The notes beneath the pieces were generated by a model that was not told the origin of the DNA, did not search any database, and saw only the letters and a list, made by a program, of their open reading frames with translations. Positions 1 to 14,413 of a DNA stretch of 64,000 bases are shown here, piece by piece (position 1 is the first letter of the stretch; each line of letters begins with the position of its first letter). Source of the DNA: Bryobacterales bacterium (GTDB lineage Bacteria > Acidobacteriota > Terriglobia > Bryobacterales > Bryobacteraceae). A program made the position numbers and the translations under genes. The DNA lies in contig JAFAQY010000027.1 of NCBI GenBank assembly GCA_019261985.1, forward strand, positions 62,001 through 126,000. The letters are read 5' to 3'.

Positions 1-786
1 CAGAGATTTCGTGTTTACTCAAGCTCCGGCGATTCGACGACCGGCGAAAAGCCGAGGTTGATCGATGAAGGCACGCATGGCTTAGCGAAGCTCGGGAAAG
101 TGCCACTGTTTGGGCTCCGAATGCCGGAAGGATTATGGATGCTGAACCGGGCGGGCTCATTGCAACTGGAGCACTTCAATAAATCGAACGCGCTGGCGTG
201 GGCACTGACGATGGGGCTGTTTGCGATGCCGGTGGTCTATTCCGATCGCGAATGGACACAGATGGTCGGCGAGAGCTACTACATCCAGCTCGGGCCGGGG
301 GACAAATTCGGTTGGACTGAGCCGGAGGGCAAGGTTTATCAGATCGCTTCGGACAACCTGATGCATTTGCAGGAGGAGATTTATCGCGTGTGTTATTTGC
401 CTCAGGCGGGAGGGTCGCTCGATAAGGGCGGCAGGCAATCCGGCCTGGCAAAGCAGATGGATTTTTCGATCACGCAAGAAGTTCTACGGGCGTATGGGGA
501 TTCGGTTAAGGACCAGATCCGGCGGGTTCTGCAAGCGATCGGGGCGGCACGGGAGGACGCTCTCGAGATCGGCGTTACAGGAATGGATGAGTTCGACATC
601 GCCGATTTTTCGACGGAGCTGGATAACGCGGAGAAATTGTTGGCGTTGGGCATGGCTTCGCCGACGTTGAAGAAGGAAGTTTTCAAGAGATTGGCATTGA
701 AGTATCTGAGCGATACGCGGCAGGACGTGAAGGATCGAATTGTCGGGGAGATTGAAGCGGGGGCTAAAGCCCCCGTTGCAGGCTGA
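1..786 (+). CDS. Phage portal-like protein, C-terminal part (5' end outside window)
   Basis: The frame is open from base 1, so the gene starts upstream and only about 261 C-terminal residues are visible. The TTG at 58 is only an internal codon. I infer a portal (head-tail connector) role from position, directly before a scaffold and a major capsid gene, and from the character of the protein: a mixed core followed by a charged helical C-terminus with recurring SITQEV, ELDNAEKLL and KYLSDTRQDVKDRI segments. Portal C-termini of the DUF935/DUF4055 kind look like this, but I cannot name the family firmly. The last eight residues (AGAKAPVA) and the stop are encoded by a dispersed palindromic repeat, so the native C-terminus was probably different. 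Confidence 0.6.
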   Translation, partial: QRFRVYSSSGDSTTGEKPRLIDEGTHGLAKLGKVPLFGLRMPEGLWMLNRAGSLQLEHFNKSNALAWALTMGLFAMPVVYSDREWTQMVGESYYIQLGPGDKFGWTEPEGKVYQIASDNLMHLQEEIYRVCYLPQAGGSLDKGGRQSGLAKQMDFSITQEVLRAYGDSVKDQIRRVLQAIGAAREDALEIGVTGMDEFDIADFSTELDNAEKLLALGMASPTLKKEVFKRLALKYLSDTRQDVKDRIVGEIEAGAKAPVAG

Positions 787-819: not shown

Positions 820-1371
820 ATGGCCGAAGAAGGCGGAAAGAATAATATTCGGGAGATTGTGCAGGCGGTGGTCCAGGAGTTCGTGAGGGCGGAGCAAAGC
901 AAGGCGGAGCCAGGATACAAAACGGAACTGCTGGAGGAGAGACGCCGGCGGGAAACGCTTGAGCAGAGGGTGAATGAACTCGTTACTGAAACAGAGCGGG
1001 CTCGCGCGAAAGCGGAGGAGGCGGAGCGAAGCGCGTCGATTCGCGCGGAGCTGCAGAAGCTCGGGGTCGCGAAAGTGGAGCTGGCGTACAAGGCCGTGAA
1101 GGACGAAATTCAACGAGGCGAGGATGGCCGCCTGATGGCGCAAGACGGGGTCGATATGAAGGACTATCTGACGCGCTTCGTTGGAGAGAATCCGGAGCTG
1201 CTGCCGGCGAGGCTCGCGGGAGGATCGGGGGCAAGCGCCGGACAAAGAAGTTCGGGTGGACAGGCGGCCATTGATATCGACAAGATTAAGCCCGGCATGA
1301 GCGCGGAGGAGTTAGACCGGGTGCGGCAGGAGATCGCGAGGGTGGCGTCGCAGACGCTGCGCGGGATGTAG
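820..1371 (+). CDS. Putative phage scaffolding protein
   Basis: This 183-residue protein is very charged. A long predicted coiled coil occupies about residues 25-75 (ELLEERRRRETLEQRV, ERARAKAEEAERSA). A Gly/Ser-rich linker follows (about 130-148), then a short helical tail ending QEIARVASQTLRGM. Small, helical, acidic/basic-striped proteins just before the major capsid gene are normally scaffolds that template procapsid assembly and then leave. The function is inferred from position and coiled coil; there is no protease motif, so it is not a fused protease-scaffold. An AAGAGATG context precedes the ATG start. Confidence 0.6.
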   Translation: MAEEGGKNNIREIVQAVVQEFVRAEQSKAEPGYKTELLEERRRRETLEQRVNELVTETERARAKAEEAERSASIRAELQKLGVAKVELAYKAVKDEIQRGEDGRLMAQDGVDMKDYLTRFVGENPELLPARLAGGSGASAGQRSSGGQAAIDIDKIKPGMSAEELDRVRQEIARVASQTLRGM

Positions 1372-1417: not shown

Positions 1418-2329
1418 GTGGCAATTCTTACTTCAGCAAATGTGGCGACTGCGATTGTCAAGCTCGTGGCAGCGGATGCGCTGCCCGCGCTCTTAGGGAA
1501 CCTTGTTATGGGCAACCTGGTCAATCGCGACTACGAGCCGGTGCTGGCGCAGACGGGAGACACGGTGAACGTGCCGATTCCGCCGACGCTGGTGGCGAAC
1601 AACATCGCAGAAGGCGGCACGGTGCAGACGCAGAATCCGAATTTGGGGAACGCGCAGATCGTACTGAATACGCATGTGGAAGCTACGTTCCAGATTCCGG
1701 ACGTTACGAAAGTGCTGGCCGTGCCGGACCTTTTGAAGCTTTACATGCAGCCGGCGGTGGTGGCGATTGCCGAGCGAATCGAGTCGGATCTGCTGGGCCT
1801 GTATCCATCGTTTACGGCGAACACTCCGGTGGGCACCGGCGGAACGCCGATTACGGAAGCGGTGGTGGATGCGGCAGAATCGACTCTGTTCCAAGCGCAG
1901 ATGCCGTCCAGCGCGGCGAAGTATCTGGTGGTGGATTCGGTGACGTATTCGACACTGCGACAGATTCCCCGGTTCAGCGAATTCCAAACGGCCGGCGAGG
2001 CGGGTCTGCGGGCGCTGATCGATGGCGCTGTAGGCAAGATGAAGGACTTCTACATCTTCCGTTCGCAGTTCGTCACGAAGACAGGCAGCAGCCCGGTAAC
2101 GACTCACAATCTCGCATTCGGGCGCGATGCGGTCGGTTTGGTAGTGCGCCGATTGCCGCAACCGCTGCCCGGGACGGGCGCCATCGCCGAGTACGCAGAA
2201 CTGGGCAACTTCGGTATGCGGGTCACCATGAGCTATCAGCCGAATACTTTGGCACAGCAGTTCACGGTAGACGCACTATATGGCGCGGGCGTGTTGCGGA
2301 ACGCGTTTGGCGTACAGGTGAACAGCTAG
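1418..2329 (+). CDS. Phage major capsid protein (P22 coat / HK97-fold type)
   Basis: The 303-residue protein begins at GTG with a GAGAGG ribosome site 12 bases upstream. Residues 25-75 carry the layout seen in P22-coat-like proteins: GNLVMGNLVNRDYEPVLAQ, then DTVNVPIPPTL, a phrase typical of capsid N-arm/E-loop regions. The middle (about 105-200) has the helix-rich peripheral-domain pattern, and the C-terminus (GVLRNAFGVQVNS) resembles coat proteins that end with rates of V/G strand residues. It should form the icosahedral shell. Position after a scaffold and before small connector genes supports this strongly. It lacks an obvious N-terminal delta domain, consistent with a separate scaffold gene upstream. 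Confidence 0.82.
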   Translation: MAILTSANVATAIVKLVAADALPALLGNLVMGNLVNRDYEPVLAQTGDTVNVPIPPTLVANNIAEGGTVQTQNPNLGNAQIVLNTHVEATFQIPDVTKVLAVPDLLKLYMQPAVVAIAERIESDLLGLYPSFTANTPVGTGGTPITEAVVDAAESTLFQAQMPSSAAKYLVVDSVTYSTLRQIPRFSEFQTAGEAGLRALIDGAVGKMKDFYIFRSQFVTKTGSSPVTTHNLAFGRDAVGLVVRRLPQPLPGTGAIAEYAELGNFGMRVTMSYQPNTLAQQFTVDALYGAGVLRNAFGVQVNS

Positions 2330-2406: not shown

Positions 2407-2703
2407 ATGGACTTACGCGTCTATTACCAGAAGATTCGAAAGATTGAGGCGGAACTCACGGAGCCATTTGTGGTGGTTGTGAGCCGGCGGACAGAAGAGG
2501 GCGGCAGAGCGGGCGTGAAATCGGAGGTGCCGAAGAAGCTGGCAGCTAAGCTCATCGCAGAGGAGAAGGCGGTGGTGGCGAGCACAGAGGAGGCGGCTGA
2601 GTTTCGCGCCGAGCAAGAACGGAAGTGGAAGGAGAGCCACGATGCCGCGGAGGCGGTGGACAAGATGGCACGGATCGCCACCAAGCCGTTGAAGAAGGCG
2701 TAA
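2407..2703 (+). CDS. Small charged protein in virion cluster, function unknown
   Basis: The protein has 98 residues, starts at ATG right after the repeat and ends six bases before the next gene. It is rich in Lys, Glu and Ala, with an early strand-like stretch (EPFVVVVSRRTEEGG) and a long helical C-terminal half. I do not recognise the family. Position between capsid and tail genes suggests a head-decoration, adaptor or head-completion role; nothing in the sequence decides between them. Confidence 0.5.
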   Translation: MDLRVYYQKIRKIEAELTEPFVVVVSRRTEEGGRAGVKSEVPKKLAAKLIAEEKAVVASTEEAAEFRAEQERKWKESHDAAEAVDKMARIATKPLKKA

Positions 2704-2709
2704 CACACC

Positions 2710-3477
2710 ATGCTCTTAACGGACGGCAGACCGAACAACATCGAGGATTTGAGGGTATATGGATCGTCGATTTTGGATCTAGCGAGCACAGAAAAAATCG
2801 AGTTGGATGCAAAGCTAGATCTGGCTTTGACAGAGATCAAAGAAGATGTGCTTGACGTGTTGCTGGACCATACGAGATCTAGCGATCCGCAATCGACGAT
2901 CCGGCGGACGATCGGGGTTTCGGATGTTGTCATTACTCCTCAAATGAAGCGCTGGCATGCGGTACATACGCTGGAGGTGGTTTACCGGGATGCGTTTAAT
3001 AATCAGCTCAACAACAGGTATCAAGCGCAATTTGAGCAATATCACGAATTGAGCAAAAACGCGCGAGAGCACACGTTGCGGTTCGGAATCGGAATGGCGC
3101 TGCTGCCGATTCCGATCGCGCAACCACCGTTGTTCAGCTACGTGGCGGGCTTGATTCCGGCGACTACTTACTACGTCCGGGTGAGCTGGGTGGGCACGGG
3201 AGGTAAGGAAGGCATGCCGAGTTGCGAGACGACTTACGACGCGCCCGCTGGGAGCTTGCCGGTAATTACCGCGGTACATCCGCCGCCGGTGGCGGCTGGT
3301 TTCAATGTTTATATGTCGCTTGCAGCGGGTTGTGAACGGTTGCAGAATGCGGCCCCCATTCCCTTGGGGAGCAGCTTCACGTTGCCGGGGACGGGTCTGG
3401 TGAATGGGACGGTGGTGGGAAACGGGCAGATTCCGGATACATACGTAATCGGCGGGCGGACTTTGAGGCGCGGATAA
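2710..3477 (+). CDS. Virion protein with C-terminal fibronectin-III-like segment
   Basis: This 255-residue protein has an N-terminal helical half. From about residue 142 it has a fibronectin-type-III-like module: GLIPATTYYVRVSWVGTGG is the classic L-x-P-x-T-x-Y-x-V-R-V strand pattern. A glycine-rich end follows (VIGGRTLRRG). Such modules are common in tailed-phage structural proteins and often bind surfaces weakly. The upstream half could be a head-tail connector or stopper. I do not recognise the full-length family. It is tightly packed, only three bases from the next gene. Confidence 0.5.
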   Translation: MLLTDGRPNNIEDLRVYGSSILDLASTEKIELDAKLDLALTEIKEDVLDVLLDHTRSSDPQSTIRRTIGVSDVVITPQMKRWHAVHTLEVVYRDAFNNQLNNRYQAQFEQYHELSKNAREHTLRFGIGMALLPIPIAQPPLFSYVAGLIPATTYYVRVSWVGTGGKEGMPSCETTYDAPAGSLPVITAVHPPPVAAGFNVYMSLAAGCERLQNAAPIPLGSSFTLPGTGLVNGTVVGNGQIPDTYVIGGRTLRRG

Positions 3478-3480
3478 GAA

Positions 3481-3978
3481 ATGGCGACAACGGCTAGCGT
3501 GGCAGCGCGAAAGATGGTCGGGTTTTTGCGCGATCCGAACACTGGTATTGCGCCGGTGGTGTCACAAATGGCAGACGATACCGGTGTGCCGCTTCCGCAG
3601 ATTCCGCCGGCGAACATTTTTAATCAAAATGTCGCGTTCGAACTTGCGGAGAAGGCACAAGCGTTGAAGTACCCGGTGATTTATGTGTATACGGACCGAG
3701 TGAAGAATTCGTTGACAGAAAAATTCCGCAAATTCTCAGGCACTGTTAGAACGGTGGCGGAAGTACGGATGTCGCAAGACCGGATTGAAGGGATTGAAGA
3801 GCAGGTGCGTCTCTACGTGGACGGGGTGACTCAGGTGTTGGACGGAAACCGCGGGAGTTGGGGTGAAGGCGCTTATTACACAGGAGGCTACGAGGTGGCA
3901 TTCGAGCCGGTGCGGCATGGGGGCAAGAACTACATTCAGGCGGCGAAGGTGAGCTTCGAAGTGGACTTTTCGCAATAG
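3481..3978 (+). CDS. Putative tail-terminator / neck protein
   Basis: This 165-residue protein lies between connector-like genes and the tail-tube candidate, where tail-completion (gpU or Gp17-like) proteins usually sit. The centre reads IYVYTDRVKNSLTEKFRKF, and the C-terminus (YEVAFEPV, KVSFEVDFSQ) is strand-rich like a tail-terminator sheet. It lacks signal or membrane segments. The assignment is by gene order and fold impression; an alternative is a second connector protein. Confidence 0.4.
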   Translation: MATTASVAARKMVGFLRDPNTGIAPVVSQMADDTGVPLPQIPPANIFNQNVAFELAEKAQALKYPVIYVYTDRVKNSLTEKFRKFSGTVRTVAEVRMSQDRIEGIEEQVRLYVDGVTQVLDGNRGSWGEGAYYTGGYEVAFEPVRHGGKNYIQAAKVSFEVDFSQ

Positions 3979-3998: not shown

Positions 3999-5168
3999 AT
4001 GTCGTGTTACATATCGTCGAATAACAATCGGGTCTACGCCGCTTTGGAATCAAGTTATGGCCAGGTAGCGGCGATAACGGGACAGAATCGAATTCCGTTG
4101 TTGCGGCTGAATGCGAAGCAAACGCCGGTGACGACCGGGCGTAAGGATAAAACCGGGACCCGCACATTTATCGGTCTGCCAAACCGTATTCGCAAGACAT
4201 CGACGTTCGAGCTGAGCACTCCAATGACGGAGTGGACGAATACTTCCACTGCGCCGAGCCATGGGCCCTTGTTTCAAGCAGCGCTGGGCGCCGCTCCTCA
4301 GGCTTTTGGAGGCGGTACAGTGCAGTCGATCACGAATCAGACGCAACTCCAATTTGCAGGTCCGCACGGCTTGGCTCCGGGGCAGGCAATCACGAACGGC
4401 GGAGAGATTCGATTCGTAACCGCCGTGCAGAATACCACGACTTTATTCATCAATGCGCCTTTCAGTTTTTTAACCGGCGGGGCCACGGTGGGGAACACGA
4501 TGACATATGCCGTCGCGAACGATCTAAGCAGTGTCACGCTTTACGATTATTGGGACCCAAGCACAGCGGTGCAGCGAATTTTGAACGGTGCGGCAATGGA
4601 TAAGGTGCAAATCAAGGTGAATGGAGATTTTCACCAGTTCGATTTCAGTGGACCGGCGCGGGACGTGATGGACAGCGCCAGCTTCACGAGCGGAGAAGCC
4701 AACCTGACGCAGTTTCCGAGCGAGCCCTCCTCAGCGGGTTTCGATTACACCATTGTGCCGGGGCATTTGGGGCAGGTCTGGATGGGGGCGACTCCGGTGC
4801 AGTTTTTTACTTTGACGTCGGCCGAGCTGACGGTTCAAAATAATATTTCGCTGCGCTTGCATGAATTCGGCAGCGATTTCCCAGTGTGTATTCAAGCGGG
4901 CGCACGAGAGGTGTCGCTGAATGTCACGATTTTCGAACAGGACGATGCGCAGACGAAACAGTTGTACCAGGCCGCGCGGCAGCGGTCGCCGATTAGCGTG
5001 ATGATCCAGCTCGGGGAGCAATCGGGGCAGTTGTTTGCTGCATACATGCCGGCGATGGTGCCGGAAGTTCCGCAGTACGACGATCAGCAGACGCGGCTGC
5101 AATGGAAATTCCAGAACAGCAGGGCACAAGGGACCGCCAATGATGAGCTCTACGTTGCATTCGGATAG
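3999..5168 (+). CDS. Putative tail-tube (major tail) protein
   Basis: The 389-residue, strand-rich protein begins MSCYISSNNNRVYAALESSYG, a start seen in many tail-tube proteins, which often open with an ALE(S)(S/T)YG phrase. The middle (about 107-170) contains an FCCH-like insert (GTVQSITNQTQLQF, GLAPGQAITNGGEIRFVTAV), a beta module common in phage tail proteins. The last third has repeated strands and ends RAQGTANDELYVAFG. Being followed by a frameshifting chaperone pair strongly supports the tube assignment, since that order is conserved in long-tailed phages. It should polymerise into the tail channel. Confidence 0.6.
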   Translation: MSCYISSNNNRVYAALESSYGQVAAITGQNRIPLLRLNAKQTPVTTGRKDKTGTRTFIGLPNRIRKTSTFELSTPMTEWTNTSTAPSHGPLFQAALGAAPQAFGGGTVQSITNQTQLQFAGPHGLAPGQAITNGGEIRFVTAVQNTTTLFINAPFSFLTGGATVGNTMTYAVANDLSSVTLYDYWDPSTAVQRILNGAAMDKVQIKVNGDFHQFDFSGPARDVMDSASFTSGEANLTQFPSEPSSAGFDYTIVPGHLGQVWMGATPVQFFTLTSAELTVQNNISLRLHEFGSDFPVCIQAGAREVSLNVTIFEQDDAQTKQLYQAARQRSPISVMIQLGEQSGQLFAAYMPAMVPEVPQYDDQQTRLQWKFQNSRAQGTANDELYVAFG

Positions 5169-5187: not shown

Positions 5188-5625
5188 ATGGAGGCTGCGT
5201 CTTCGCGCGGACAGGCGGGTTGGCAACCTGCCGCAGGTTGGCAACCTGCCCCACTCTCAGGCGTGTATGAGAGTTCGCGGTGGTTTGAGGCTGAAGCAAT
5301 GGCCGGCGTGCGGTATCGGATAGCGCGGATTTCACTGGGCCGGCGGATTGAGTTTGCGCGGCGAGTACGAGAGATCGGCAAGAGGCTTGAATTTCTGGAG
5401 GCGGGGAGCGACGCGCGGGAGAAGCTGGAAGCGGCGGTGTTGCAAGCGGAGATCGATCGCGCGTACTTGGAGTGGGGGCTGGAAGCGGTCGAGGGGCTCG
5501 ATATAGATGGAGAGCGCGCGACGCCGCAGATGCTTATCGAGCGGGGGCCGCTCAATTTGTCGATGGAGATTCTCGGCAAAATCCGCGCCGAATGTGGACT
5601 AACCGAGGACGAAAAAAAAAACTGA
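5188..5625 (+). CDS. Tail-assembly chaperone, short (G-type) product
   Basis: The best start is the ATG at 5188 (145 residues); the frame also runs back into the tail-tube gene, and a GTG at 5263 is an alternative. Residues about 9-23 (AGWQPAAGWQPAP) are encoded by an inserted dispersed repeat, so the ancestral start may lie after it. The rest is a helical, charged protein (RRIEFARRVREIGKRLEFL, EKLEAAVLQAEIDRAYLEW). Between tail tube and tape measure this is the place of lambda gpG-like chaperones, which hold the tape measure during tail assembly. It stops at TGA directly after an A10 run. Confidence 0.6.
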   Translation: MEAASSRGQAGWQPAAGWQPAPLSGVYESSRWFEAEAMAGVRYRIARISLGRRIEFARRVREIGKRLEFLEAGSDAREKLEAAVLQAEIDRAYLEWGLEAVEGLDIDGERATPQMLIERGPLNLSMEILGKIRAECGLTEDEKKN

Positions 5626-5951
5626 TCGTTGCCTTTCATTTCTTGCACTCCGATCCCGCGGCGTGGAAATGCGATCAGTGCAGACGGCAGGGTCTGGAGC
5701 GGAAGCGGCGGTGCGGTTTTTTGCCAGAGGCTGAACGAGCGCCAATAAGACTGGTGTGGACTCGCGCGCGGGCGTCGACCGATGAGTGTCCAAAATCGGC
5801 TGTAATGCCGGCGAGCATCGCCTTGGTTGAGAGTTTTTTTGCCTGGAAGTTTGCGGGCGGAGCGGACGTGCGGGAGTTGGCGGCTCGCGAAGCCGATGCA
5901 TTTTTGATCTTGGAAAAAGAGTGGCGGACGGAGCAGGCGAATGGCCAGTGA
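5188..5951 (+). CDS. Tail-assembly chaperone, long (GT-type) product made by -1 frameshift
   Basis: Ribosomes that slip back one base at 5616-5622 read on through the next frame to 5951. This adds about 109 residues beginning LIVAFHFLHSDPAAWKCDQC. The T-part has CDQC plus later Cys residues (RRCGF, DECPK) and a helical end (ALVESFFAWKFAGGADV). A frame-0 ATG at 5472 exists, but the peptide before the shift site in that frame is unlike a protein (Arg/Ala/Gly-rich), so independent translation is unlikely. The layout reproduces the conserved G/GT arrangement. The 3' end overlaps the next gene start by 11 bases. Confidence 0.65.
5212..5255. repeat. Paired-palindrome repeat, caggttggcaacctg type, inside coding frame
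   Basis: Two palindromes (GGGTTGGCAACCTG and CAGGTTGGCAACCTGCC) end in CCACT, the inverse orientation of the GTGGGGCAGG core. The copy lies in the 5' part of the tail-chaperone frame and encodes GWQPAAGWQPAP. Confidence 0.85.
5616..5622 (+). promoter_or_regulatory. Programmed -1 ribosomal frameshift site A AAA AAC
   Basis: In the chaperone frame the codons read GAA AAA AAA AAC TGA. The heptamer A AAA AAC fits the X XXY YYZ slippery rule and is followed at once by a stop. The downstream frame stays open for 109 codons. The ten-A run (5612-5621) could also cause transcriptional slippage, which would give the same products. Confidence 0.75.
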
Positions 5952-6585
5952 CATTTTGAAGAGTAATCTCAACGCAGTATTGGGCAAGACCCCTGAGACG
6001 GTCAGCGGGGTGGTCAGCGGTTCGTTGGCGGGAGCCCGCGGAAGTAGCGCGGTCGCCGATCAGTTCAATCAGCTTACGCAACAATTGCAACAGTTGCAGA
6101 CAGCCAGCCAGGCCGAAGCACAAACACTCGCCGAGAATACTCAGGCAGTCAATCAGAATACATCCCAGCTTGGGCAAGCGGGAACGTCGACGGCGAGTCA
6201 CGTGACCAGCACGCTACAAAGTACATTAGGCCTTTTTACGGGGTTAAGCCCGCTGATTACGGGCCTGGCAAGCTTATTTGGCGGAGGCGGTAGCAGCCAG
6301 CCGGGACCGCCAACTCCATTTCTGCTTCCACCGTCAGTTTCGGTGAATGCGGGAATGAGCGAGGCGGCTCCGACGCAGGCGTTTAGCGCGGATTATGCAG
6401 CAGGGGGACAGCCGCGATTAGATGCGACTTCAACATCGGCAGCACCGCAAATCACGGTTCAAGTGCAGGCGTTGGATAGCCAGTCGATTTTGGATCGCAG
6501 CCAGGATATCGCCGCGGCCGTGAGGCAGGCGATGCTCGAATCGAGCGTGCTTAACGACGTTATTCAAGGGGCCATGAATGGCTAG
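5941..6585 (+). CDS. Short tape-measure candidate / tail protein
   Basis: This 214-residue protein sits exactly where the tape-measure gene should be. Its N-terminal half is Gln/Ala-rich helix (FNQLTQQLQQLQTASQAEAQ), followed by a hydrophobic Gly/Leu stretch at about 95-120 (TLGLFTGLSPLITGLASLFG), a Pro/Gly linker and a helical C-terminus (DRSQDIAAAVRQAMLESSV). Helix plus hydrophobic patch is the tape-measure pattern, but the length is far below the usual 600-1500 residues. If it does set tail length, the tail would be very short. Alternatively it is only a tail-tip component. Confidence 0.5.
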   Translation: MASDILKSNLNAVLGKTPETVSGVVSGSLAGARGSSAVADQFNQLTQQLQQLQTASQAEAQTLAENTQAVNQNTSQLGQAGTSTASHVTSTLQSTLGLFTGLSPLITGLASLFGGGGSSQPGPPTPFLLPPSVSVNAGMSEAAPTQAFSADYAAGGQPRLDATSTSAAPQITVQVQALDSQSILDRSQDIAAAVRQAMLESSVLNDVIQGAMNG

Positions 6586-6934
6586 CTTCCCGACGCTCAA
6601 GACCGGCGCGGTCGCGCAGTATCCTTCCAGCCGGATGACACAGACTGCGACACAGGTATACCGATTTCTGGATGGGACTGAGCAGAGGTTCATCGCATTT
6701 GCGGCGCCGCTGCGCAAATGGCAAATCAAGTTGGAGCTGCTGGACGAGGCCGAGCTGAGCAATTTGGAGAATTTCCTAGCGAGTGAAGCGGGGCAATCGG
6801 GCAGCTTTTCGTTCACGGATCCGTGGGATGGGAGTGTTTATCCGAATTGCAGTTTCGCTAGCGATGCGTTTAAGGCAGATTTGAAAGGACAAGGGCAAGG
6901 CGGGACGGAGTTAATCGTGAGGGAGAACCGCTGA
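6578..6934 (+). CDS. Distal tail protein A (paralogue of next gene)
   Basis: The protein has 118 residues and overlaps the previous gene by eight bases. The sequence reads QYPSSR, FLDGTEQRF, a W-x-(I/L) core, then LDEAELSNLENFLASEAGQ and FSFTDPWDG. This last pair of motifs (helix, then F-x-F-x-DP-x-G) recurs in the next gene, so the two are tandem paralogues. It resembles the small distal-tail proteins that precede gpL/gpJ-type hub genes (the DUF2460 neighbourhood in GTA-like clusters). It probably forms a ring at the tail end; this is inference from order and motif. Confidence 0.5.
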   Translation: MASFPTLKTGAVAQYPSSRMTQTATQVYRFLDGTEQRFIAFAAPLRKWQIKLELLDEAELSNLENFLASEAGQSGSFSFTDPWDGSVYPNCSFASDAFKADLKGQGQGGTELIVRENR

Positions 6935-7701
6935 TGCCCGTGTTTCCGCAGATCACCATGTATCCGCTGGTACGGCAGCTCAATTTAAGAACGGTGGTAA
7001 ACACGCTTCCGGATGGGAGCACGGTCGTGTACACCGATCCGGATGCGTCGGCGCGGGCATGGGAGTGGCAGGCGAAGGGGCTGACGGCGGCGGAATGGAC
7101 ATCAATAGAGGCTTTCTTCCGATCGGCCTCCGGACAGTGGCAAACATTTACGTTTGTCGATCCTGCGGGAAATCTGTTAGCCGAGAGCGAAAATTTCAGC
7201 GCGGGAGCGTGGGCGAACGGTGCGCTGATTCAATTGACATCAGGCATAAGCGATCCGTTCGGGACCACGCGGGCAACCCATATCGTCAACGCGGGGCGAG
7301 CTGCGCAAGCGGTTCAGCAGACATTACCTGTGCCGGAGAATTTCCGGTATGCGCTGAGTGTTTGGGCGCGAGGCGGGGCGGGATCGAATCTAACGCTGAT
7401 TGCCGGCGCAGCCACGTTGCCGTGCCCGCTTACAACGCAATGGCGGAGGGTTTGGTTCCCGGTGAATTTGGGGCAAGGCAGCGTCGGCGTGACGTTTGGG
7501 TTGCAGTTGAACCCAGGCGGAGCGGTGGATATTTTCGGAATGCAGGTGGATGCACAAACCGCGCCATCGGATTACAAGATGACGGGAGCGACCGGGGGGG
7601 TTTACCTGAAAGCTCGTTTTGCGACGGACGCAATTACAGTACAGGCGCAGAGCACCGATGTTTATGACGCGACAATTCGGATCATGAGCACGGAGGGCTG
7701 A
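6934..7701 (+). CDS. Distal tail protein B with C-terminal carbohydrate-module-like domain
   Basis: The 255-residue protein overlaps the previous stop by one base. Residues 1-78 repeat the preceding protein's pattern (MYPLVRQ, LPDGSTVVY, AAEWTSIEAFFRSASGQ, TFVDPAGN). Residues about 85-215 add a jelly-roll-like module (SENFSAGAWANG, YALSVWARGGAGS, WRRVWFPVNLGQGS, VDIFGMQVDA). That succession is typical of phage carbohydrate-binding modules that start with a 'lie/se-N-F-s-x-W' motif. The C-terminus returns to short strands (VYDATIRIMSTEG). A receptor-touching tail component is likely. Confidence 0.5.
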   Translation: MPVFPQITMYPLVRQLNLRTVVNTLPDGSTVVYTDPDASARAWEWQAKGLTAAEWTSIEAFFRSASGQWQTFTFVDPAGNLLAESENFSAGAWANGALIQLTSGISDPFGTTRATHIVNAGRAAQAVQQTLPVPENFRYALSVWARGGAGSNLTLIAGAATLPCPLTTQWRRVWFPVNLGQGSVGVTFGLQLNPGGAVDIFGMQVDAQTAPSDYKMTGATGGVYLKARFATDAITVQAQSTDVYDATIRIMSTEG

Positions 7702-10700
7702 TGCCGACGATCAATACGCTGAAAGAACACGAAGCGGCACTCACGCCCCTGTTTCTGTTCGATTGCGCTCTGGCATCGGGGGCGCTTGAACGATGGAGCA
7801 CGCACGCCGTTACAGTTAATGGAAACGCCTATAATTCGCGGCTGCTGAAACACAACCTTTTCGAGCTGCAGGCTGGATCGGATATTGGGTTGGACGGCGC
7901 GGCGAAGATCACAATTACACTCGCGAACGCGGACTCGCATTTTTCAGAGATTGAGCGGCAGACCGGATTTCGTGGCGCGCGGGTCACGGTCAGCCTAGTG
8001 TTCTTCGATTTGGTTGCGGGGCTGCTGGTATCGGAAACGCGCGTAATCTTCTCAGGTGTCGGAAATGCCGCCGATGAGATAACGGAATCGGGGTTTAAGG
8101 TTACTTTCACGAACCGTCTGAACCTGCAGCGCATTTTACTGCCGGATGTACGAATCCAGCGCAGGTGCGCGTGGATTTTTCCTTCCTCGTCGGTCCAGCG
8201 GCAAGAGGCGCTTACGGGCGGAGCGAAGGGAATCTACTCGCCACTATACCGGTGCGGATACTCGCCGGATCAGGCGGGCGGCGTGGGAAATCTGAACAAC
8301 GGCACGCCGTTCCCGACATGCGATTACACGCGGGCGAATTGCGTAGCGCGAGGGATGTTCGATACGGACCAGTCGAATAATGTCACGCGGCGCTTCGGCG
8401 GCATCGAGTTTCTCCCTTCGCAGATTCTGGTGCGAAGCTTCGGCGAGCAGGGGACGCACTTATCGCCGCGAGCAGTGAACACGGCGCTGTACAACGACTT
8501 CGTTCCGCTGGTTTATGGAACGGCGTGGCAGACGCCCGCCGTGGTGTTCGCGCGCAACGACGGAAATCTGACGCGGATGGAAGTGCTGATCTCGATGGGC
8601 GAGATCCAAGGCATCGTTAAGGTGCTGGTGAACGACTACGAGATTCCGCTGGGCGTTTCGGGAGCGAATATGACGGCGACCGGTTGGTACAACGTGATCA
8701 GCACGGGGACACGGTCGGGCAGTTTCGATTACGACTTCACCGATTCGGCCGGCACGCCGCTGGGAGATCCGTTCGGCAGCATGGCGTATTTGAGCGTGGT
8801 GGTTCCAAACGCAATTAGCAGCGGGAACGCGCTGCCGCAGGTCAAGGTTCTGGTCCAAGGCATGAAGCTGGAGCAGTTCGATACGACCGGGGCATCGCTC
8901 GGCGTGTCGTTCACGAATAATCCAGCCTGGGTTTTGTTGGACGTGCTGCGGCGCACGGGATGGACCGAGGCGGATATCGATCTCGTGAGCTTCGCGAACG
9001 CGGCGACGTACTGCGGCGCGACGATTCAGACAACCGACCTTTACGGAAACACCGTATTGACTCCGCGGTTCGAGTGCAATTTGATTATTCAGAGCAGGAG
9101 AAGCGCCGCGGAAGTGGTGAAAGGGATTCGGCTGGGGTCGTCGTTGTTGTTGACGTTCGGCGTGAGTGGATTGTTGACGCTGCGAGTGGAGAACACCCTG
9201 GCTTTGCAACAGCCGGGTTTGCCGAACGGGAGCAACAGCACGCAGCCGCTGAACGGCGGCTGGCCTGCCTACGAATTCAGCGATGGCTCTGCGACGTTCT
9301 CGGGAATTTTGAGAAAGCCGAATGGGGAGCCAGACATCCGGCTGTTTTCGAAGAGCGGGGCCGATATCGCGAATCACCTCACGGTGGAGTTTCAAGACGA
9401 ATACAACGATTATCAGCAGGATAGTTTATCGCTGGTGGATGTTGACGATTCGCTGCTGACGGGGCGTGAAGTGACGGCGGCTTTCCAAGCGCTGGGATTA
9501 CCGAACTTCGACCAGGCGACCCGGATGATGGAGCTGCAACTCGCGAAGAGCCTCAGCGGCAATACTTTCGTCGAATTTGAGACCACCGTGAAGGGCGTTT
9601 GTATTTCTCCCGGCGACATAATCAGCGTTACATATTTGAAGGAGGGGTTGGAGCGGCAGCCGCTCCGGGTGGTTAAGCTCGCGCCGGGCATGAACTATCA
9701 AACCGTCTTAGTGACGGCGCAGTGGCACGACGATGCTTGGTACACGACGGGGGGAGCGAACGCGGCGGGAGGGCGGCGGCAAGGCGGCGCGGAGGGGGGG
9801 CTTCCGCGGCCGCTGGTGGGGAGCGTGCTGGATTCGAACGGAGTGGAGCAATTCGGTATTACCGAGAGCGTGACGCCGACGGCGGATGGAGGATACTCGG
9901 TCACGTTGAGGGTGGCGTTCGATACACCGGCCGTTCCGGCCGCGGCGGGAGTGAATATTCCGCTGCTGAGCCTGAATCCGACCGTAAACGTGACGGGCGG
10001 CACGCTCGCCGGAGGGCAGACGCTTTACTACGCGGTGAGTGCCCTGGATGGAAATGGAGCGGAGAGCGGGCTTTCATTTATCGTAAGAGCCGTGATTGCG
10101 GCTGGCGGAAACACGAATTCCGTGGAGTTGACGGGCTTAAGCTTTTCCCAGGGCTCGGGAAGCGTCAACGTTTATCGAGGGCCGAATCCATATCAGTTGT
10201 TATTGATCGCGAATACCGCGGTGGCGCAGACCTATACAGACGCGGGCGCTACAGCTAGTCTTGCAGGGCCTCCGGACGGCAATTATAATCACGCGAATTT
10301 CTACTGGAGGTTCGAGCTGCAACCGGAGAATGTCGTCGGAATCCATTCGCCGACGACAATCGGCAATAGCACGCTGGGGATGCTGCCGAACGATTTTGAA
10401 GGCGGGTTGGTGAGAATCACCCAAGGCAAGGGGGCTGCGCAAGAGCGGCTGGTGATAAGCAACAACGCGACCACACTTACCGTGAATCCGCCGTGGACGG
10501 TCGAACCGGATACCACGAGCTTCTTCGCGGTAACCGAGAGCACTTGGAAATTCGGGGGACTAAGCTCGACAAGCCCGGCACAGATCGACGTACCGAACCG
10601 GCCGGGAGCTACGGTGGAAATATCGGGGCGGTCCGCGAACGTTTTGGATCAAGAAAGCACGTACGATTTGAATCCGGTAACGCGATGGCAGATCGGTGGC

Positions 10701-11624
10701 GGGCTAGGCGGCGGGGTCGACACGGATGTGCCGCCGTTGCCGGTTTTCGGACTAAATTTAGCGGGGCAGGGCAGTATCGAGCTACTCGGTGTGGCGTTCA
10801 CGACATTGACGAACACGCACACGATTCAGGCGGGAACGCTTTCGCTGTTCTATTGGGATGAGCTGAGCAGCCCGACGGGTTTCTCGCTCGCTGCCGCGAT
10901 CGGCACGTCGGATAGCACGGTCACATTGAGCCCGTCGGGAACGGCTTTCCCGGGAGATCTGATCCAGATCGAAGCGGAGATTTTTCAGGTGAGCGCGGTA
11001 TCAAGCGGCGGGACGCAATATACGGTTACGAGAGCGTCGCATGGGAGCGCGGCGGCCGTGCATAACGCGGGAACGCCAATTTATCACCTGCAGCGCAACG
11101 TCACGATCGTGCCATTTGTGAAGGGATTCTTCGGAAGCCAGGCGAGCGGTAGCTTTGGCTACTCGATCTTTTTGCCGGACGTGCGCGTGGGGACGGCCGA
11201 ATTTTTCGTCACGAACACGATCGGGGGAAGTCCGGTGGCAGTGGGCGCGTTTGGAGCGACGGTGGACCAAGGCTTGAGAACACTATCGGGCGGCCAACTG
11301 TCGATTCAGGTGGAAGGATACCTCGCGATTCAGACCAATGCAGCGCCGCCATTGGTGATCGATACGACAGAGGCTGCGCGCGATATATTTGCGGTGGTTG
11401 GCGCGGCGCCTAGCGGCGCACCGGTGCAGTTGCAGTTGCGGCAAGGGAGCACTGTGTATTGCACTCTGACAATTGCGGACGGCGCAACAAATTCGAATGT
11501 GGTTAGCGGATTCGGGCTGCCACCGCTTTCGGCTGATGCTGCATTGAGTTTGGATATTCTGTCTGTTCCGACTGCAGCGAATACGGTTTCCGCTCAGGAT
11601 CTGACGGTCACGATAAGGCTGTGA
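7701..11624 (+). CDS. Tail hub / host-specificity protein with gpL-like four-Cys domain
   Basis: The protein has 1307 residues. Residues 1-150 look like DUF2163/gpL-type tail proteins (LFLFDCALASGALERWSTH, FEVTF-like strands, FTNRLNLQRILLPDV). Residues about 155-225 carry four cysteines (RRCAW, YRCGY, TCDYTRANC), the arrangement of the lambda gpL / BR0599 C-terminal domain that holds an iron-sulfur cluster. After that come gpJ-like hub sheets (about 240-680) and a chain of beta modules, including fibronectin-like segments (LAGGQTLYYAVSALDGNG) and tail-fibre strands. The fusion would put the gpL and gpJ roles in one chain. It overlaps its neighbours by 1 and 4 bases, so it is translationally coupled. 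Confidence 0.62.
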   Translation: MPTINTLKEHEAALTPLFLFDCALASGALERWSTHAVTVNGNAYNSRLLKHNLFELQAGSDIGLDGAAKITITLANADSHFSEIERQTGFRGARVTVSLVFFDLVAGLLVSETRVIFSGVGNAADEITESGFKVTFTNRLNLQRILLPDVRIQRRCAWIFPSSSVQRQEALTGGAKGIYSPLYRCGYSPDQAGGVGNLNNGTPFPTCDYTRANCVARGMFDTDQSNNVTRRFGGIEFLPSQILVRSFGEQGTHLSPRAVNTALYNDFVPLVYGTAWQTPAVVFARNDGNLTRMEVLISMGEIQGIVKVLVNDYEIPLGVSGANMTATGWYNVISTGTRSGSFDYDFTDSAGTPLGDPFGSMAYLSVVVPNAISSGNALPQVKVLVQGMKLEQFDTTGASLGVSFTNNPAWVLLDVLRRTGWTEADIDLVSFANAATYCGATIQTTDLYGNTVLTPRFECNLIIQSRRSAAEVVKGIRLGSSLLLTFGVSGLLTLRVENTLALQQPGLPNGSNSTQPLNGGWPAYEFSDGSATFSGILRKPNGEPDIRLFSKSGADIANHLTVEFQDEYNDYQQDSLSLVDVDDSLLTGREVTAAFQALGLPNFDQATRMMELQLAKSLSGNTFVEFETTVKGVCISPGDIISVTYLKEGLERQPLRVVKLAPGMNYQTVLVTAQWHDDAWYTTGGANAAGGRRQGGAEGGLPRPLVGSVLDSNGVEQFGITESVTPTADGGYSVTLRVAFDTPAVPAAAGVNIPLLSLNPTVNVTGGTLAGGQTLYYAVSALDGNGAESGLSFIVRAVIAAGGNTNSVELTGLSFSQGSGSVNVYRGPNPYQLLLIANTAVAQTYTDAGATASLAGPPDGNYNHANFYWRFELQPENVVGIHSPTTIGNSTLGMLPNDFEGGLVRITQGKGAAQERLVISNNATTLTVNPPWTVEPDTTSFFAVTESTWKFGGLSSTSPAQIDVPNRPGATVEISGRSANVLDQESTYDLNPVTRWQIGGGLGGGVDTDVPPLPVFGLNLAGQGSIELLGVAFTTLTNTHTIQAGTLSLFYWDELSSPTGFSLAAAIGTSDSTVTLSPSGTAFPGDLIQIEAEIFQVSAVSSGGTQYTVTRASHGSAAAVHNAGTPIYHLQRNVTIVPFVKGFFGSQASGSFGYSIFLPDVRVGTAEFFVTNTIGGSPVAVGAFGATVDQGLRTLSGGQLSIQVEGYLAIQTNAAPPLVIDTTEAARDIFAVVGAAPSGAPVQLQLRQGSTVYCTLTIADGATNSNVVSGFGLPPLSADAALSLDILSVPTAANTVSAQDLTVTIRL

Positions 11625-14413
11625 GTAATATGCTCGATAAACTGCGACCCGATGGGGATCTGGAGTGCTTTTTCTTTCATCCCTCCGCGATCGCCGCCTT
11701 GAGCAATGCTTCTCCATCCGGATTCACGTTATCAGGCACATGGCGGCAGCAGTTCGATTGGGCTGTGGTCGATTGGAACCGGGATAATGTGTACGATCAT
11801 CCCGCGCTGCGCAACTTGCCGGATGGCGATCTGAGCGGGCTTACGCTGACGTACAACGAAACTCGGACCAACTGTATCCCGTTGGATTCAGATTTGTATC
11901 ACACCGTGAGCTGGCCGTTTTTGCGGGTGTGGGCGCCAGATGCGAGCGGAACCGAGCAGGTTTATCAGGTGCCGCTGGCTCCGCTGGCGACTCCAGTCCA
12001 GGGGGCTTACGCCGAAGCGTACGCTGACTTCACGTTGTCGGGCACGTTAACCACGGGCGACTTTGTGGGGCTGGCGTATCTGAACGAACACGTCACGTAT
12101 CAAATTGGCGGATGGGAAGGGTCGATTGGAGGGGTCCTCGATCAGATAGTCCTCGCGTTTGCGTCGACGGCGCTATTGAGGGCGACGCGGACCGGATCGA
12201 CGATTCGCGTGTATTATACGGGCGGGGCGGCGATCGGATCGAGCACGACGGGCGTGAATGGAAACCGCTTTGCGCTGTATTCGTATGCGTGCTCGGCGAC
12301 CGGCGGCGCTTCGACGCTGAGCTGGGACGCGCCGACTAAACAGTTTGCGAATGGCACTTCGCCCACGCAGTGGAAGATTACGATTGCGTTCAACTCGCTT
12401 CAGGGCTACATCGATCCGGACTACACGACGCTCCATCCGATTGTTAATCCGAATCACGTTCGCCGATTGAGGTGGACCTACGCGGCGGACTTGCAGGCCG
12501 GCGCGTACGCACGAAGCGAGTTCCAGGTGCAGGTGACGAACTGGACCGTTACAGGAACCAATCGTGCTTATTCTGTGGCGGGGCCGGGAAGCCGACGTTT
12601 AGAGAACGATTCCTCTGCGTTGACGTACACGGGCGCATGGACGATGCTGCGAGGAAATTATTCGGGTGGGACGATTCAATATACACAGTCGCCGGGCAGT
12701 TCGGCGCAGTGCGTGTACGAAGCTCCAGCGGCACACACCTTGTATCTGGGGCTGCGCTACACCGGGAACGGGGCGACGGCGGCGATCACGGTGGATGGGC
12801 ACAGCGCGGGCGCGGCCAATCTCTTGAAAAGCGGTGAAGACGTGCTGATCCGGTGGCCGGTCGGCCAGTACGCGGCGGGCAATCACAGGCTGACGATTAC
12901 GCATCAAGGTCCGGCTAATGCCGATTTGTACCTCGATTTCGTCGAAGCGGCTGTTCCGGCGACCACAATGCCGAGCTTCACCGTCCAGCCACAAATGACT
13001 GCGGCTACTGATTGGGACACGGATCACTCGCTTGCGCTTCCGGCGGAGAGGACGGCGTGGTTCATCGATACGCTCGGGTTTGCAGGGCGGGCAAATCACT
13101 ACCTGGGCGCGCTGTGGTTTTATGAACTCACCATGCCGGGACAGATGTATGCCTCGGGAAAGGTGACTTTCACGGGCGGACCGGACACGAATCCGAGCGT
13201 AACGAATTCGGTGACCACTACCGTAGGTGGTACCGTGCTGACGAAACTCGCGCATATGGGCGATACGGCCTCGACGCTCGCTTTGGCATTCGCGAACGAG
13301 TTGAATCGCGGCTACATGAGCTTTTGGGCAAGCGCGACTGGAAATGTGCTCACGATTTATTCGCGCTCGATGGGTACGGCGGGAAATAGCATCACGCTAA
13401 CGGCGAGTTCGTCCGCTCCAGCAGTCTGGCAGTTGAATCCGACTGGCCCGCAGTTCTCTGGAGGAGTGGACGGGACCTGGCTTACGGACTTGAACGCGAT
13501 GCCGCGGTTGAATCGGGCGGCGCGCGATTGGACCCTCGCCTACTTTACCGCGCTGAAGGGCTATGGACTGGATGGCGCCGCGGCGTTTAGCATGGAATTG
13601 CAATTTGGCGATCCGTCACCCGCCGCGGGCATTGCGCAACGAGGTCCGCTCGGAGATCCGATCCTGCTTCCCACTCCATCCTTGCAGACGAATTTCTCGC
13701 CGGCCAGCCTGGCATTCTGGCAAGAAGTGTATGCGGAACTCGCCACCATTCAGGCGAACGCGGGGCTGCAGCCATATCTTCAATTCGGAGAGGTGCAGTG
13801 GTGGTATTTTCCGAACAACGGCATGTTGCCCGGTCCGGGATATGTCGATTTTCACGGGATGCCTTTTTACGATTCTTGGGCGGCGGCGCAATTTCAGGCG
13901 CAGTACGGCCGGCCGATGGCGCAGATTACGACAAACTCGGTGAGTCCGGCCGCCTATCCGCAGGAGACAGCTTTTCTCGCCGCGGTCCTCGGGAATTTCA
14001 CGACTACTATGATGAATTACGTTCGGTCGCGACAGCCCAGTTGCCGCTTCGAGGTTCTTTATCCGACGGACGTGAACGCGACTGCTTTTAATCAGGCGAT
14101 CAACTTTCCTGTGAGCGCTTGGACGCCGTCGACGCTGACCTGCTTGAAGACGGAGTGCTTCGGTTACACGCTGGGACGCAACCTGAATCAGTGCGAACAA
14201 ACTATTGACGATTCGTTCGGGTTTCCGCAAACGCAGCGCAGTCACCTGGTTGGGATCGGCGATTCTACGACCACGTGGCCGAAAGAGGCGCGATGCGCGT
14301 TGGGCAAGGGGCTAGAGAGCGTAGTGCTTTTTGCACTCGATCAGTTTTGCCTCATCGGCTACGGAGTTCCGCTGACCAAGGGATTGCGGCGGAGTTTGCG
14401 TATGGCATCCTAG
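11621..14413 (+). CDS. Large tail protein with C-terminal glycosidase-like TIM barrel
   Basis: The 930-residue protein starts inside the hub gene's stop (ATG at 11630 is a close alternative to the GTG at 11621). The N-terminal 250 residues are strand-rich and unfamiliar. Residues about 270-470 contain jelly-roll-like segments (LYLGLRYTGNGATAAITV, ADLYLDFVEA). Residues about 620-900 look like a glycoside-hydrolase TIM barrel: MPRLNRAARDWTLAYF, LQPYLQFGEVQWWYF and GYVDFHGMPFYDSW place Glu and Asp at strand ends. From memory, similar proteins are labelled 'non-contractile tail sheath, TIM-barrel'; I could not check this. Enzyme activity is uncertain. Confidence 0.5.
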   Translation: MSNMLDKLRPDGDLECFFFHPSAIAALSNASPSGFTLSGTWRQQFDWAVVDWNRDNVYDHPALRNLPDGDLSGLTLTYNETRTNCIPLDSDLYHTVSWPFLRVWAPDASGTEQVYQVPLAPLATPVQGAYAEAYADFTLSGTLTTGDFVGLAYLNEHVTYQIGGWEGSIGGVLDQIVLAFASTALLRATRTGSTIRVYYTGGAAIGSSTTGVNGNRFALYSYACSATGGASTLSWDAPTKQFANGTSPTQWKITIAFNSLQGYIDPDYTTLHPIVNPNHVRRLRWTYAADLQAGAYARSEFQVQVTNWTVTGTNRAYSVAGPGSRRLENDSSALTYTGAWTMLRGNYSGGTIQYTQSPGSSAQCVYEAPAAHTLYLGLRYTGNGATAAITVDGHSAGAANLLKSGEDVLIRWPVGQYAAGNHRLTITHQGPANADLYLDFVEAAVPATTMPSFTVQPQMTAATDWDTDHSLALPAERTAWFIDTLGFAGRANHYLGALWFYELTMPGQMYASGKVTFTGGPDTNPSVTNSVTTTVGGTVLTKLAHMGDTASTLALAFANELNRGYMSFWASATGNVLTIYSRSMGTAGNSITLTASSSAPAVWQLNPTGPQFSGGVDGTWLTDLNAMPRLNRAARDWTLAYFTALKGYGLDGAAAFSMELQFGDPSPAAGIAQRGPLGDPILLPTPSLQTNFSPASLAFWQEVYAELATIQANAGLQPYLQFGEVQWWYFPNNGMLPGPGYVDFHGMPFYDSWAAAQFQAQYGRPMAQITTNSVSPAAYPQETAFLAAVLGNFTTTMMNYVRSRQPSCRFEVLYPTDVNATAFNQAINFPVSAWTPSTLTCLKTECFGYTLGRNLNQCEQTIDDSFGFPQTQRSHLVGIGDSTTTWPKEARCALGKGLESVVLFALDQFCLIGYGVPLTKGLRRSLRMAS

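Follow-up and report, generated by a model that had tools for sequence, protein, structure and literature searches.

The locus described here raises the question of whether one gene of a chromosomal, phage-like gene cluster specifies two tail assembly chaperones, the second of which would be reached by a programmed −1 frameshift, and, if so, by which mechanism the frame is changed and what the cluster makes. It lies in a stretch of 64,000 nucleotides (nt) of contig JAFAQY010000027.1 from a Bryobacterales bacterium (forward strand, positions 62,001 to 126,000), called the window below, in which a G-like open reading frame (ORF) is followed in the −1 frame by a T-like extension, G and T being named after the chaperone genes of phage lambda. 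From a comparison with homologous loci, it is very probable that this single gene gives rise to two tail assembly chaperones by −1 frameshifting. The positions concerned are the following.

5188 to 5625, plus strand: G-like tail assembly chaperone ORF in the 0 frame, 145 amino acids (aa) from ATG 5188, with the stop codon TGA at 5623 to 5625
5612 to 5621, plus strand: run of ten A residues (A10); 73 of 76 homologous loci have A6 instead
5616 to 5622, plus strand: slippery heptamer A_AAA_AAC, 0-frame codons AAA AAC
5622 to 5951, plus strand: T-like extension in the −1 frame, from CTG 5622 to TGA 5949 to 5951, 109 codons plus TGA

Reading of the sequence bore out the ORFs, coordinates, A10 run and heptamer given in the initial annotation, as well as the continuation of the −1 frame over 109 codons; the 0 frame ends in GAC GAA AAA AAA AAC TGA. 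In the proposed mechanism, most ribosomes would stop at TGA 5623 and release G, and a minority would slip back by one base on A_AAA_AAC, enter the −1 frame and produce the fusion GT. An H-type pseudoknot, the first stem of which begins 5 nt past the heptamer, would promote the slip in most relatives. As in the lambda model, G would coat the tape-measure protein and the T part of the rarer GT would recruit tail-tube subunits. The cluster as a whole would most likely make a gene-transfer-agent-like particle with a very short tail. In a tandem slip both AAA and AAC are decoded before the slip, and the junction should therefore be EKKN-LIVAFH, with NLIVAFHFLHSDPAAWK as the tryptic peptide. The junction KKK-LIVAFH, which the annotation had proposed to look for by mass spectrometry, would not arise in this way, and LIVAFHFLHSDPAAWK after KKK would be expected only from A11 transcripts or from a P-site slip.

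When 151 genomes, among them that of the window, were searched at the protein level with the −1 product, 81 gave a match at E <= 0.01. Within the same family it was found in 73 of 91 genomes at E <= 1e-5, nearly always as a single copy, and usable matches were also obtained in five genomes from other families of the order and class. One locus per genome was retained, giving 78 loci, of which 76 were assessable once L080, cut by a contig edge, and the N-masked L088 had been removed. Of these 76 loci, 74 have AAAAAAC as the heptamer, one (G076) has AAAAAAT and one (G039) has GAGAAAC; the codon preceding the heptamer is CGA in 39 and AGA in 30. In the same ORFs Lys is encoded by AAA in 27% of cases, Arg by a codon ending in A in 22% and Asn by AAC in 65%. 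Judged against this 22–65% use of the required codon endings, the heptamer is conserved across the compared loci far beyond codon use. The 0-frame stop follows the heptamer after 0–1 sense codons in 71 loci; it lies further downstream in G024, G091, G098, G111 and G119, four of which belong to other families, and the heptamer is retained there.

Since the A-run is exactly A6 in 73 of the 76 loci, the conserved unit is the heptamer and not the A10 run. The initial annotation had named the absence of the A-run from relatives as a finding that would speak against frameshifting; what was found is a window with A10, as it had stated, and relatives that share the heptamer and mostly carry A6. Two further sets of loci, which share species with the 76, gave a similar picture in the part of each that had a T match and enough upstream sequence (66 of 80 loci from contigs of named species and 50 of 80 from IMG/VR). 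AAAAAAC is present in 63 of the 66, the misses being one N-masked locus, one with the string out of the tblastn frame and one G039 sequence, and in 48 of the 50, the misses being one AAAAAAA and one G039 sequence; L128 and L237, which at 12,733 bases match the L028 contig in length, probably repeat the contig of that exceptional genome. A6 runs are present in 59 of 63 and 46 of 49 heptamer-bearing loci of these sets, respectively.

Protein similarity in the −1 frame starts with the slip base. As many as 25 of the 76 loci lack any ATG, GTG or TTG in this frame between the preceding stop codon and 60 nt past the slip, and T therefore cannot start from such a codon there; the other 51 have an available start codon and are uninformative either way. 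Conservation of the two frames only as separate proteins with their own starts, the other finding named beforehand as adverse, is thus excluded for the family overall.

The second element shared by most of the loci is an RNA structure downstream of the heptamer, which was revealed by the alignment; plain folding of the window and of L049 misses the knot. In an alignment of 75 stretches (L085 dropped), an 11-pair stem 1 begins 5 nt past the heptamer and joins GUCGC-N-UUCCA with UGGAA-N-UGCGAC, enclosing a loop of 25 nt in 66 of the 75 loci. Part of this loop, CCAGGCCGG, pairs as stem 2 with CCGGNCUGG directly after stem 1, which gives an H-type pseudoknot. Over the 66 ungapped rows (nine more, with loop indels, dropped), 87.8% of the 1320 cells of the two stems are standard pairs, against at most 44.2% when the arms are slid, and for stem 2 alone the values are 80.1% and at most 53.9%. 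Doubly changed cells number 50 over both stems, compared with a shuffle mean of 16.5, and this count was reached in none of 500 shuffles; the number of further pair types was reached by one of 500. The covariation sits on synonymous third positions: in 65 of 66 rows column 18, where an Ala codon has its third base, forms a pair with column 54 or 55. The Val codon of the stem is GTC in 59 of 60 cases, and GTC makes up 16.8% of Val codons elsewhere in these ORFs.

Because relatedness inflates covariation counts, edge-disjoint pairs of rows were taken from a 64-row tree built from the other columns (L011 and L083 dropped), with a greedy pairing of our own, and all branches of the best tree were used whether supported or not, branch support being low. 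On this tree the pair 18C/54G changed in the same direction 13 times and in the opposite direction once (p 0.0018), and 47C/74G eight times and not once (p 0.008). The eight stem pairs together gave 39 to 2, the other six not being significant singly, and six control column pairs gave 25 to 20; with the test limited to supported branches, most results among those listed contained only 2–3 pairs. In 96 further ungapped loci, which overlap in species and were filtered for a TGG codon at a fixed place from 111 loci with the heptamer and 111 bases, at least nine of the 11 stem 1 pairs are always present, and 75 loci have at least six of the nine stem 2 pairs. Single-sequence folding after the heptamer gave a mean z of −0.7, compared with +0.2 in a control stretch, and a search of Rfam returned no match for the pseudoknot. 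The pseudoknot probably promotes the slip in most relatives. A conserved Shine–Dalgarno-like stimulator upstream of the heptamer was also considered and was rejected, as 42 of the 76 loci lack every short G-rich word tested.

With regard to the two products, the conserved G protein starts near V26 (GTG 5263), and residues ~3–26 of the window's ORF lie outside it. A model of G predicted with AlphaFold2 for 5263–5622 has a mean predicted local distance difference test score (pLDDT) of 88 and aligns with the HK97 tail assembly chaperone 2ob9 with Z 5.9 and a root-mean-square deviation of 3.5 over 87 of 107 residues, at 13% identity. This nearly end-to-end alignment is suggestive of a chaperone fold but not decisive. 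No Foldseek match to the G model was obtained at E <= 0.001, G matches no Pfam family, and neither product matched a family. The model of T has a mean pLDDT of 95. Four Cys residues of T (C17, C20, C31 and C56) are invariant in 75 sequences, and since they form a CxxC...C...CP pattern T may bind a metal; in the window the pattern lies at 5670–5790.

Several observations weigh against the frameshift reading or against the role given to the pseudoknot. GT is so far a predicted product. According to PMC5009743, A_AAA_AAC is a much weaker site than A_AAA_AAG in E. coli. A weak site of this kind fits a need for the pseudoknot. One genome, G039 (L028:1480–1510), retains G and T with GAGAAAC and has no slippery heptamer. 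Two of the five covariation measures are weak: the number of pairs with a double change was equalled in 28 of 500 shuffles when both stems were counted and in 144 of 500 for stem 2 by itself, for which the number of further pair types was equalled in 110 of 500. Moreover, stem 2 is weak (five or fewer of nine pairs) in 11 of the 66 loci. In the window itself stem 1 forms 10 of 11 pairs, seven Watson–Crick and three G–U, and stem 2 is lost, with four of nine pairs, about the level of the slid controls. 2ob9 ranks seventh by Z for the G model, in a list of unrelated proteins whose Z is similar and whose matches are for the most part shorter and helical, and T has no sequence, family or fold match to a known T domain and no match in the phage records searched. 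Finally, G036, G051 and G061 (L065, L062 and L053) keep G, T and the heptamer with 9, 95 and 66 nt after T, and therefore have no tape-measure gene there. Set apart from these points, it was observed that G039 retains 10 of the 11 stem 1 pairs and seven of the nine stem 2 pairs.

Frameshifting in tail assembly chaperones is itself a well-known mechanism. In lambda and other long-tailed dsDNA phages, as described in PMC5009743, the G and GT products come from the same kind of overlapping ORFs between the tail-tube and tape-measure genes, with the same −1 heptamer slip near the end of the first ORF and a short and a long product; G binds the tape measure and GT brings the tail-tube subunits. Compared with lambda, the system described here has four invariant Cys in T, A_AAA_AAC as its heptamer, a conserved downstream pseudoknot and a place in a vertically inherited chromosomal cluster. 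The likeness to HK97 is structural, the G model covering nearly the whole length of 2ob9 at 13% identity with a Z that is not decisive. Pseudoknots of insertion sequence elements and RNA viruses, as presented in PMC5009743, show the same H-type fold a few nucleotides after X_XXY_YYZ, whereas the one found here has no Rfam match and belongs to a tail chaperone gene of a host-fixed element. What is new is the covarying pseudoknot, present in most relatives, and its setting. It also offers a natural series, with stem 2 present or lost and with A6, A7 or A10, for studying how stimulators set tail chaperone ratios.

The gene pair belongs to a cluster of ~16.7 kilobases (kb) and 16 ORFs, which runs on the window's contig from a TerS candidate to a 930-aa gene and is flanked by purM-purN-coaX on one side and by an ABC transporter and an M24 peptidase on the other, the host gene names having been assigned by reading the sequences and not by family search. 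Within the window it comprises the following genes besides the pair.

1 to 786, plus strand: portal protein, 3′ part; the full gene starts before the window, at L097:11390
820 to 1371, plus strand: scaffold candidate (PHROG 2303, E 6e-4)
1418 to 2329, plus strand: major capsid protein of the P22 coat family (PF11651 above cut-off; PHROG 283)
2407 to 2703, plus strand: 98-aa ORF, conserved in position
2710 to 3477, plus strand: head–tail connector candidate (PHROG 8040, E 6e-4)
3481 to 3978, plus strand: conserved 165-aa ORF in the tail-terminator position, a guess from gene order; no PHROG family
3999 to 5168, plus strand: tail-tube candidate by position (PHROG 290, named minor tail protein, E 4e-11)
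5941 to 6585, plus strand: short tape-measure candidate of 214 aa, by position (weak PHROG 3779, E 9e-4)
6578 to 6934, plus strand: distal tail candidate (PHROG 2913, named glycoside hydrolase, E 2e-6; PHROG 14, minor tail protein, E 0.005)
6934 to 7701, plus strand: DUF2460-like distal tail protein (PF09343, E 6.5e-6, below the Pfam cut-off)
7701 to 11624, plus strand: tail tip protein with a Phage-tail_3 domain (PF13550 above cut-off)
11621 to 14413, plus strand: 930-aa last gene of the cluster (PHROG 6040, E 1e-19)

With TerL, portal, P22-type coat, DUF2460-like and Phage-tail_3 genes identified, the particle proteins are Caudoviricete-derived. All 15 marker genes are present in 29 of the 78 loci and at least 13 in 48; the remaining loci either diverge or are truncated by the end of a contig or locus. 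The order of the genes found is collinear in all 78, with one swap, of two mutually similar genes, in L086. Tail-tube candidate, G and T follow one another in every locus where these genes were found, and in 71 of 74 loci T is separated from the following tail gene by a gap of tape-measure size, which could hold a median of 214 codons. The ORF after T, taken over 73 loci that include some without a tape measure, has a median length of 208 (range 119–342). The arrangement of tail tube, chaperone pair and tape measure on which the initial annotation relied holds in these terms, with three of the 74 loci lacking room for a tape-measure gene and both neighbours of the pair being candidates by position and by weak to moderate matches. 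In one genome, G098 (L067 / L108), 4.2 kb lie between T and the next tail gene, ~3.5 kb above the usual.

A short tape-measure gene and a DUF2460-type gene downstream of it, as found here, are also features of the gene transfer agent RcGTA. RcGTA and other gene transfer agents likewise consist of a small, vertically inherited head–tail cluster, whereas the present cluster belongs to another phylum and has a capsid of the P22 coat family and a frameshifted chaperone, and the transfer of DNA by its particles is putative. The term gene transfer agent, a viriform, is used in the sense defined in PMC9662315. Selection on the heptamer and on the pseudoknot pairs across tens of genera is, as comparative evidence, strong evidence that the chromosomal cluster still makes particles, because a frameshift ratio is useful only if tails are built.

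Such particles might be empty or tail-like, a tailocin-like weapon or structure that would transfer no DNA. Domesticated tail clusters are common, and the last genes of this cluster encode large tail-tip proteins. However, the cluster retains terminase, portal, scaffold candidate and P22-type coat, all of them conserved, the coat protein having a mean column identity of 84% among 24 sequences, and with these head genes in place DNA-filled heads are to be expected; we regard particles of the tailocin kind as unlikely.

It must also be asked whether the cluster is an ordinary prophage family that has repeatedly re-infected Bryobacterales. The upstream neighbours vary by genome, 25 of 35 downstream flanks lack the shared ABC transporter gene, at least 566 IMG/VR stretches encode a relative of the capsid, and three genomes (G053, G062 and G075) carry, besides the element, prophage-like regions with a capsid 71–79% identical. 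Against this, 73 of the 91 family genomes carry the cluster, nearly always once, and no integrase, repressor or replication family was found among 15 of the 16 ORFs scanned (the 98-aa ORF lay outside the scan, and the portal was represented by its window part); one weak lysis-named match (PHROG 2975, E 0.0012) lies within the tape-measure candidate. The best 80 IMG/VR contigs are no longer than 18.5 kb. In the window's genome host genes stand on both sides, the cluster being endogenised, and 10 of the 35 flanks, from at least seven genera, have the ABC transporter gene after the element, mostly with the M24 peptidase next. A conserved upstream insertion site at purM-purN-coaX was rejected as, among the matches listed, coaX adjoins the element only in the window's genome.

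Co-inheritance with the host was examined in 26 of the 40 genomes with a fetched rpoB stretch, in which RpoB and all four element proteins are present; the rpoB ORFs were chosen by a conserved RpoB motif, and G119 was dropped for having no such ORF. The element tree, built from TerL, portal, coat and tail tube, has 12 of 23 splits in common with that of rpoB (shuffles, mean 0.26 and maximum 3), and all 11 element splits with support of at least 95 are compatible with all supported rpoB splits. The Mantel correlation between element and rpoB is 0.76, a value that none of 2000 permutations reached, and it is 0.66 when the comparison is confined to the family and leaves out the genus of the window. 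Absences also take the form of in-place deletions, from TerL or the capsid to the last gene. Eight of the 23 genomes of the window's genus lack T, and four keep clear scars. G013 and G020 share an in-frame fusion of the TerL start with the last gene, and an identical pair of host genes comes after it; in G004 TerL, portal and scaffold are kept and the capsid is cut into the last gene, with that pair of host genes again behind it; and in G001 TerL runs into the end of the last gene. In addition, G014 has a TerL piece at a contig end. Such deletions mark the loss of an element that was ancestral. Taken together, repeated re-infection is quite unlikely, and the cluster is most likely a domesticated, gene-transfer-agent-like element of Bryobacterales that has seemingly been kept for a very long time.

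The TerL-start/last-gene fusion (L104:7746–10376 and L105:7223–9835, in two species of the same genus) has open frames of 876 and 870 codons, and this frame, still being open, may be used.

The related prophages are informative in their own right. In the L101 prophage the T frame starts at G_GGA_AAC, and in the L100 prophage the frame changes on a G6 run, where only the P-site codon re-pairs perfectly; the L100 −1 product shares 45% identity with its L101 counterpart, and its match to the T alignment has a probability of 98%. As read from these sequences, the frame arrangement is common to the two prophages and the slippery letters differ. The L099 region gave no match to G or T in the stretch searched. 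The ORF after T has 944 aa in one of the two prophages, with tape-measure PHROG matches, and 999 aa in the other, with none. A sliding clamp gene lies upstream in both T-bearing prophages and an exonuclease gene in one. These regions (L099, L100 and L101, with L279–L283) are well suited as outgroups for the domestication. In a related prophage region, a gene of 957 aa matches the Pfam TIM barrel of non-contractile tail sheath proteins.

As to how the frame is changed, the initial annotation had left two mechanisms open, ribosomal and transcriptional. In the window's own copy the pseudoknot arms lie as follows.

5628 to 5638, plus strand: 5′ arm of stem 1, 5 nt after the heptamer; the window forms 10 of 11 pairs
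5654 to 5662, plus strand: site of the stem 2 5′ arm, which most relatives retain and which has decayed in the window
5664 to 5675, plus strand: 3′ arm of stem 1, with one bulged base
5689 to 5697, plus strand: site of the stem 2 3′ arm, which has likewise decayed in the window

By transcriptional slippage on A10, messenger RNAs with A11 (one A added) or A8 (two dropped) would encode GT directly; of the A9 and A11 reads proposed earlier as signs of it, A11 (or A8) opens the T frame as read from the sequence, and A9 does not. Polymerase slippage needs about A8–9 or more. A10 is long enough for it, and the window's lineage combines A10 with a lost stem 2, as if the mechanism had shifted. The long run arose without a change of length, the relatives' Arg codon CGA or AGA being AAA here, and A10 is also found in L199, an IMG/VR contig that over this region is identical to the window, and in L170, from another genome. 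In contrast, the A6 of 73 of 76, 59 of 63 and 46 of 49 loci is by this rule too short for polymerase slippage, so that these relatives should use ribosomal slippage, and transcriptional slippage makes no use of a pseudoknot conserved in the translated RNA. An association between a longer A-run and loss of the pseudoknot was considered and is unsupported: four of five A7 loci score 7–8 of nine stem 2 pairs and several A6 loci have a weak stem 2, the fifth A7 locus (L222) and the second A10 locus (L170) having indels that leave stem 2 unscorable. As a general explanation transcriptional slippage is improbable. Because of the A6 runs and the pseudoknot that covaries in most relatives, ribosomal −1 frameshifting is read as the ancestral mechanism; of the two mechanisms, the transcriptional one is possible only as a lineage-specific addition, a shift toward it being possible in the A10 lineage of the window.

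That T is instead a separate gene with its own start, its overlap with G being incidental or a decayed fusion, is very improbable, for although in many genomes the −1 frame stays open a long way upstream, a good share of them, the window's among them, offering in-frame start codons at −30 or −150, and although T persists in G039 with the heptamer gone, 25 of the 76 loci have no start codon, the similarity begins at the slip base, and the heptamer is conserved beyond codon use.

Among the matches listed in the open-licence literature, no report of such an element for Acidobacteriota was found. The chance is about even that the cluster represents a lineage of gene transfer agents so far unreported from Acidobacteriota (Bryobacterales), which arose by independent domestication of a phage with a P22-type coat, is family-wide and is under selection for a pseudoknot-stimulated frameshift setting the two chaperones of a shortened tail; the window's species would then be a possible natural switch to mixed or transcriptional slippage, with its knot decayed and its A10 grown. 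If the particles carry host DNA, an abundant and hard-to-grow family of soil bacteria has its own gene-transfer machinery. The named hosts are nearly all recorded as Bryobacterales or as Acidobacteria named at a wider rank, the few other names looking like misassigned bins, and one is the isolate recorded as Acidobacteriaceae bacterium KBS 96 (L179), which is included in the prophage survey of the phylum in PMC5900883. IMG/VR lists copies of the chromosomal cluster as viral genomes (L199–L278).

One further feature of the window's copy lies within the start of the 0-frame ORF.

5214 to 5252 (approximate), plus strand: copy of a dispersed palindromic repeat

The repeat stands in frame directly after the ATG GAG of the G gene and adds ~24 residues. 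It occurs in ~120 places in the window's genome and in none of the sequence of 22 of the 25 relatives searched. Palindromic elements are known within Rickettsia proteins, and the repeat of the window resembles them.

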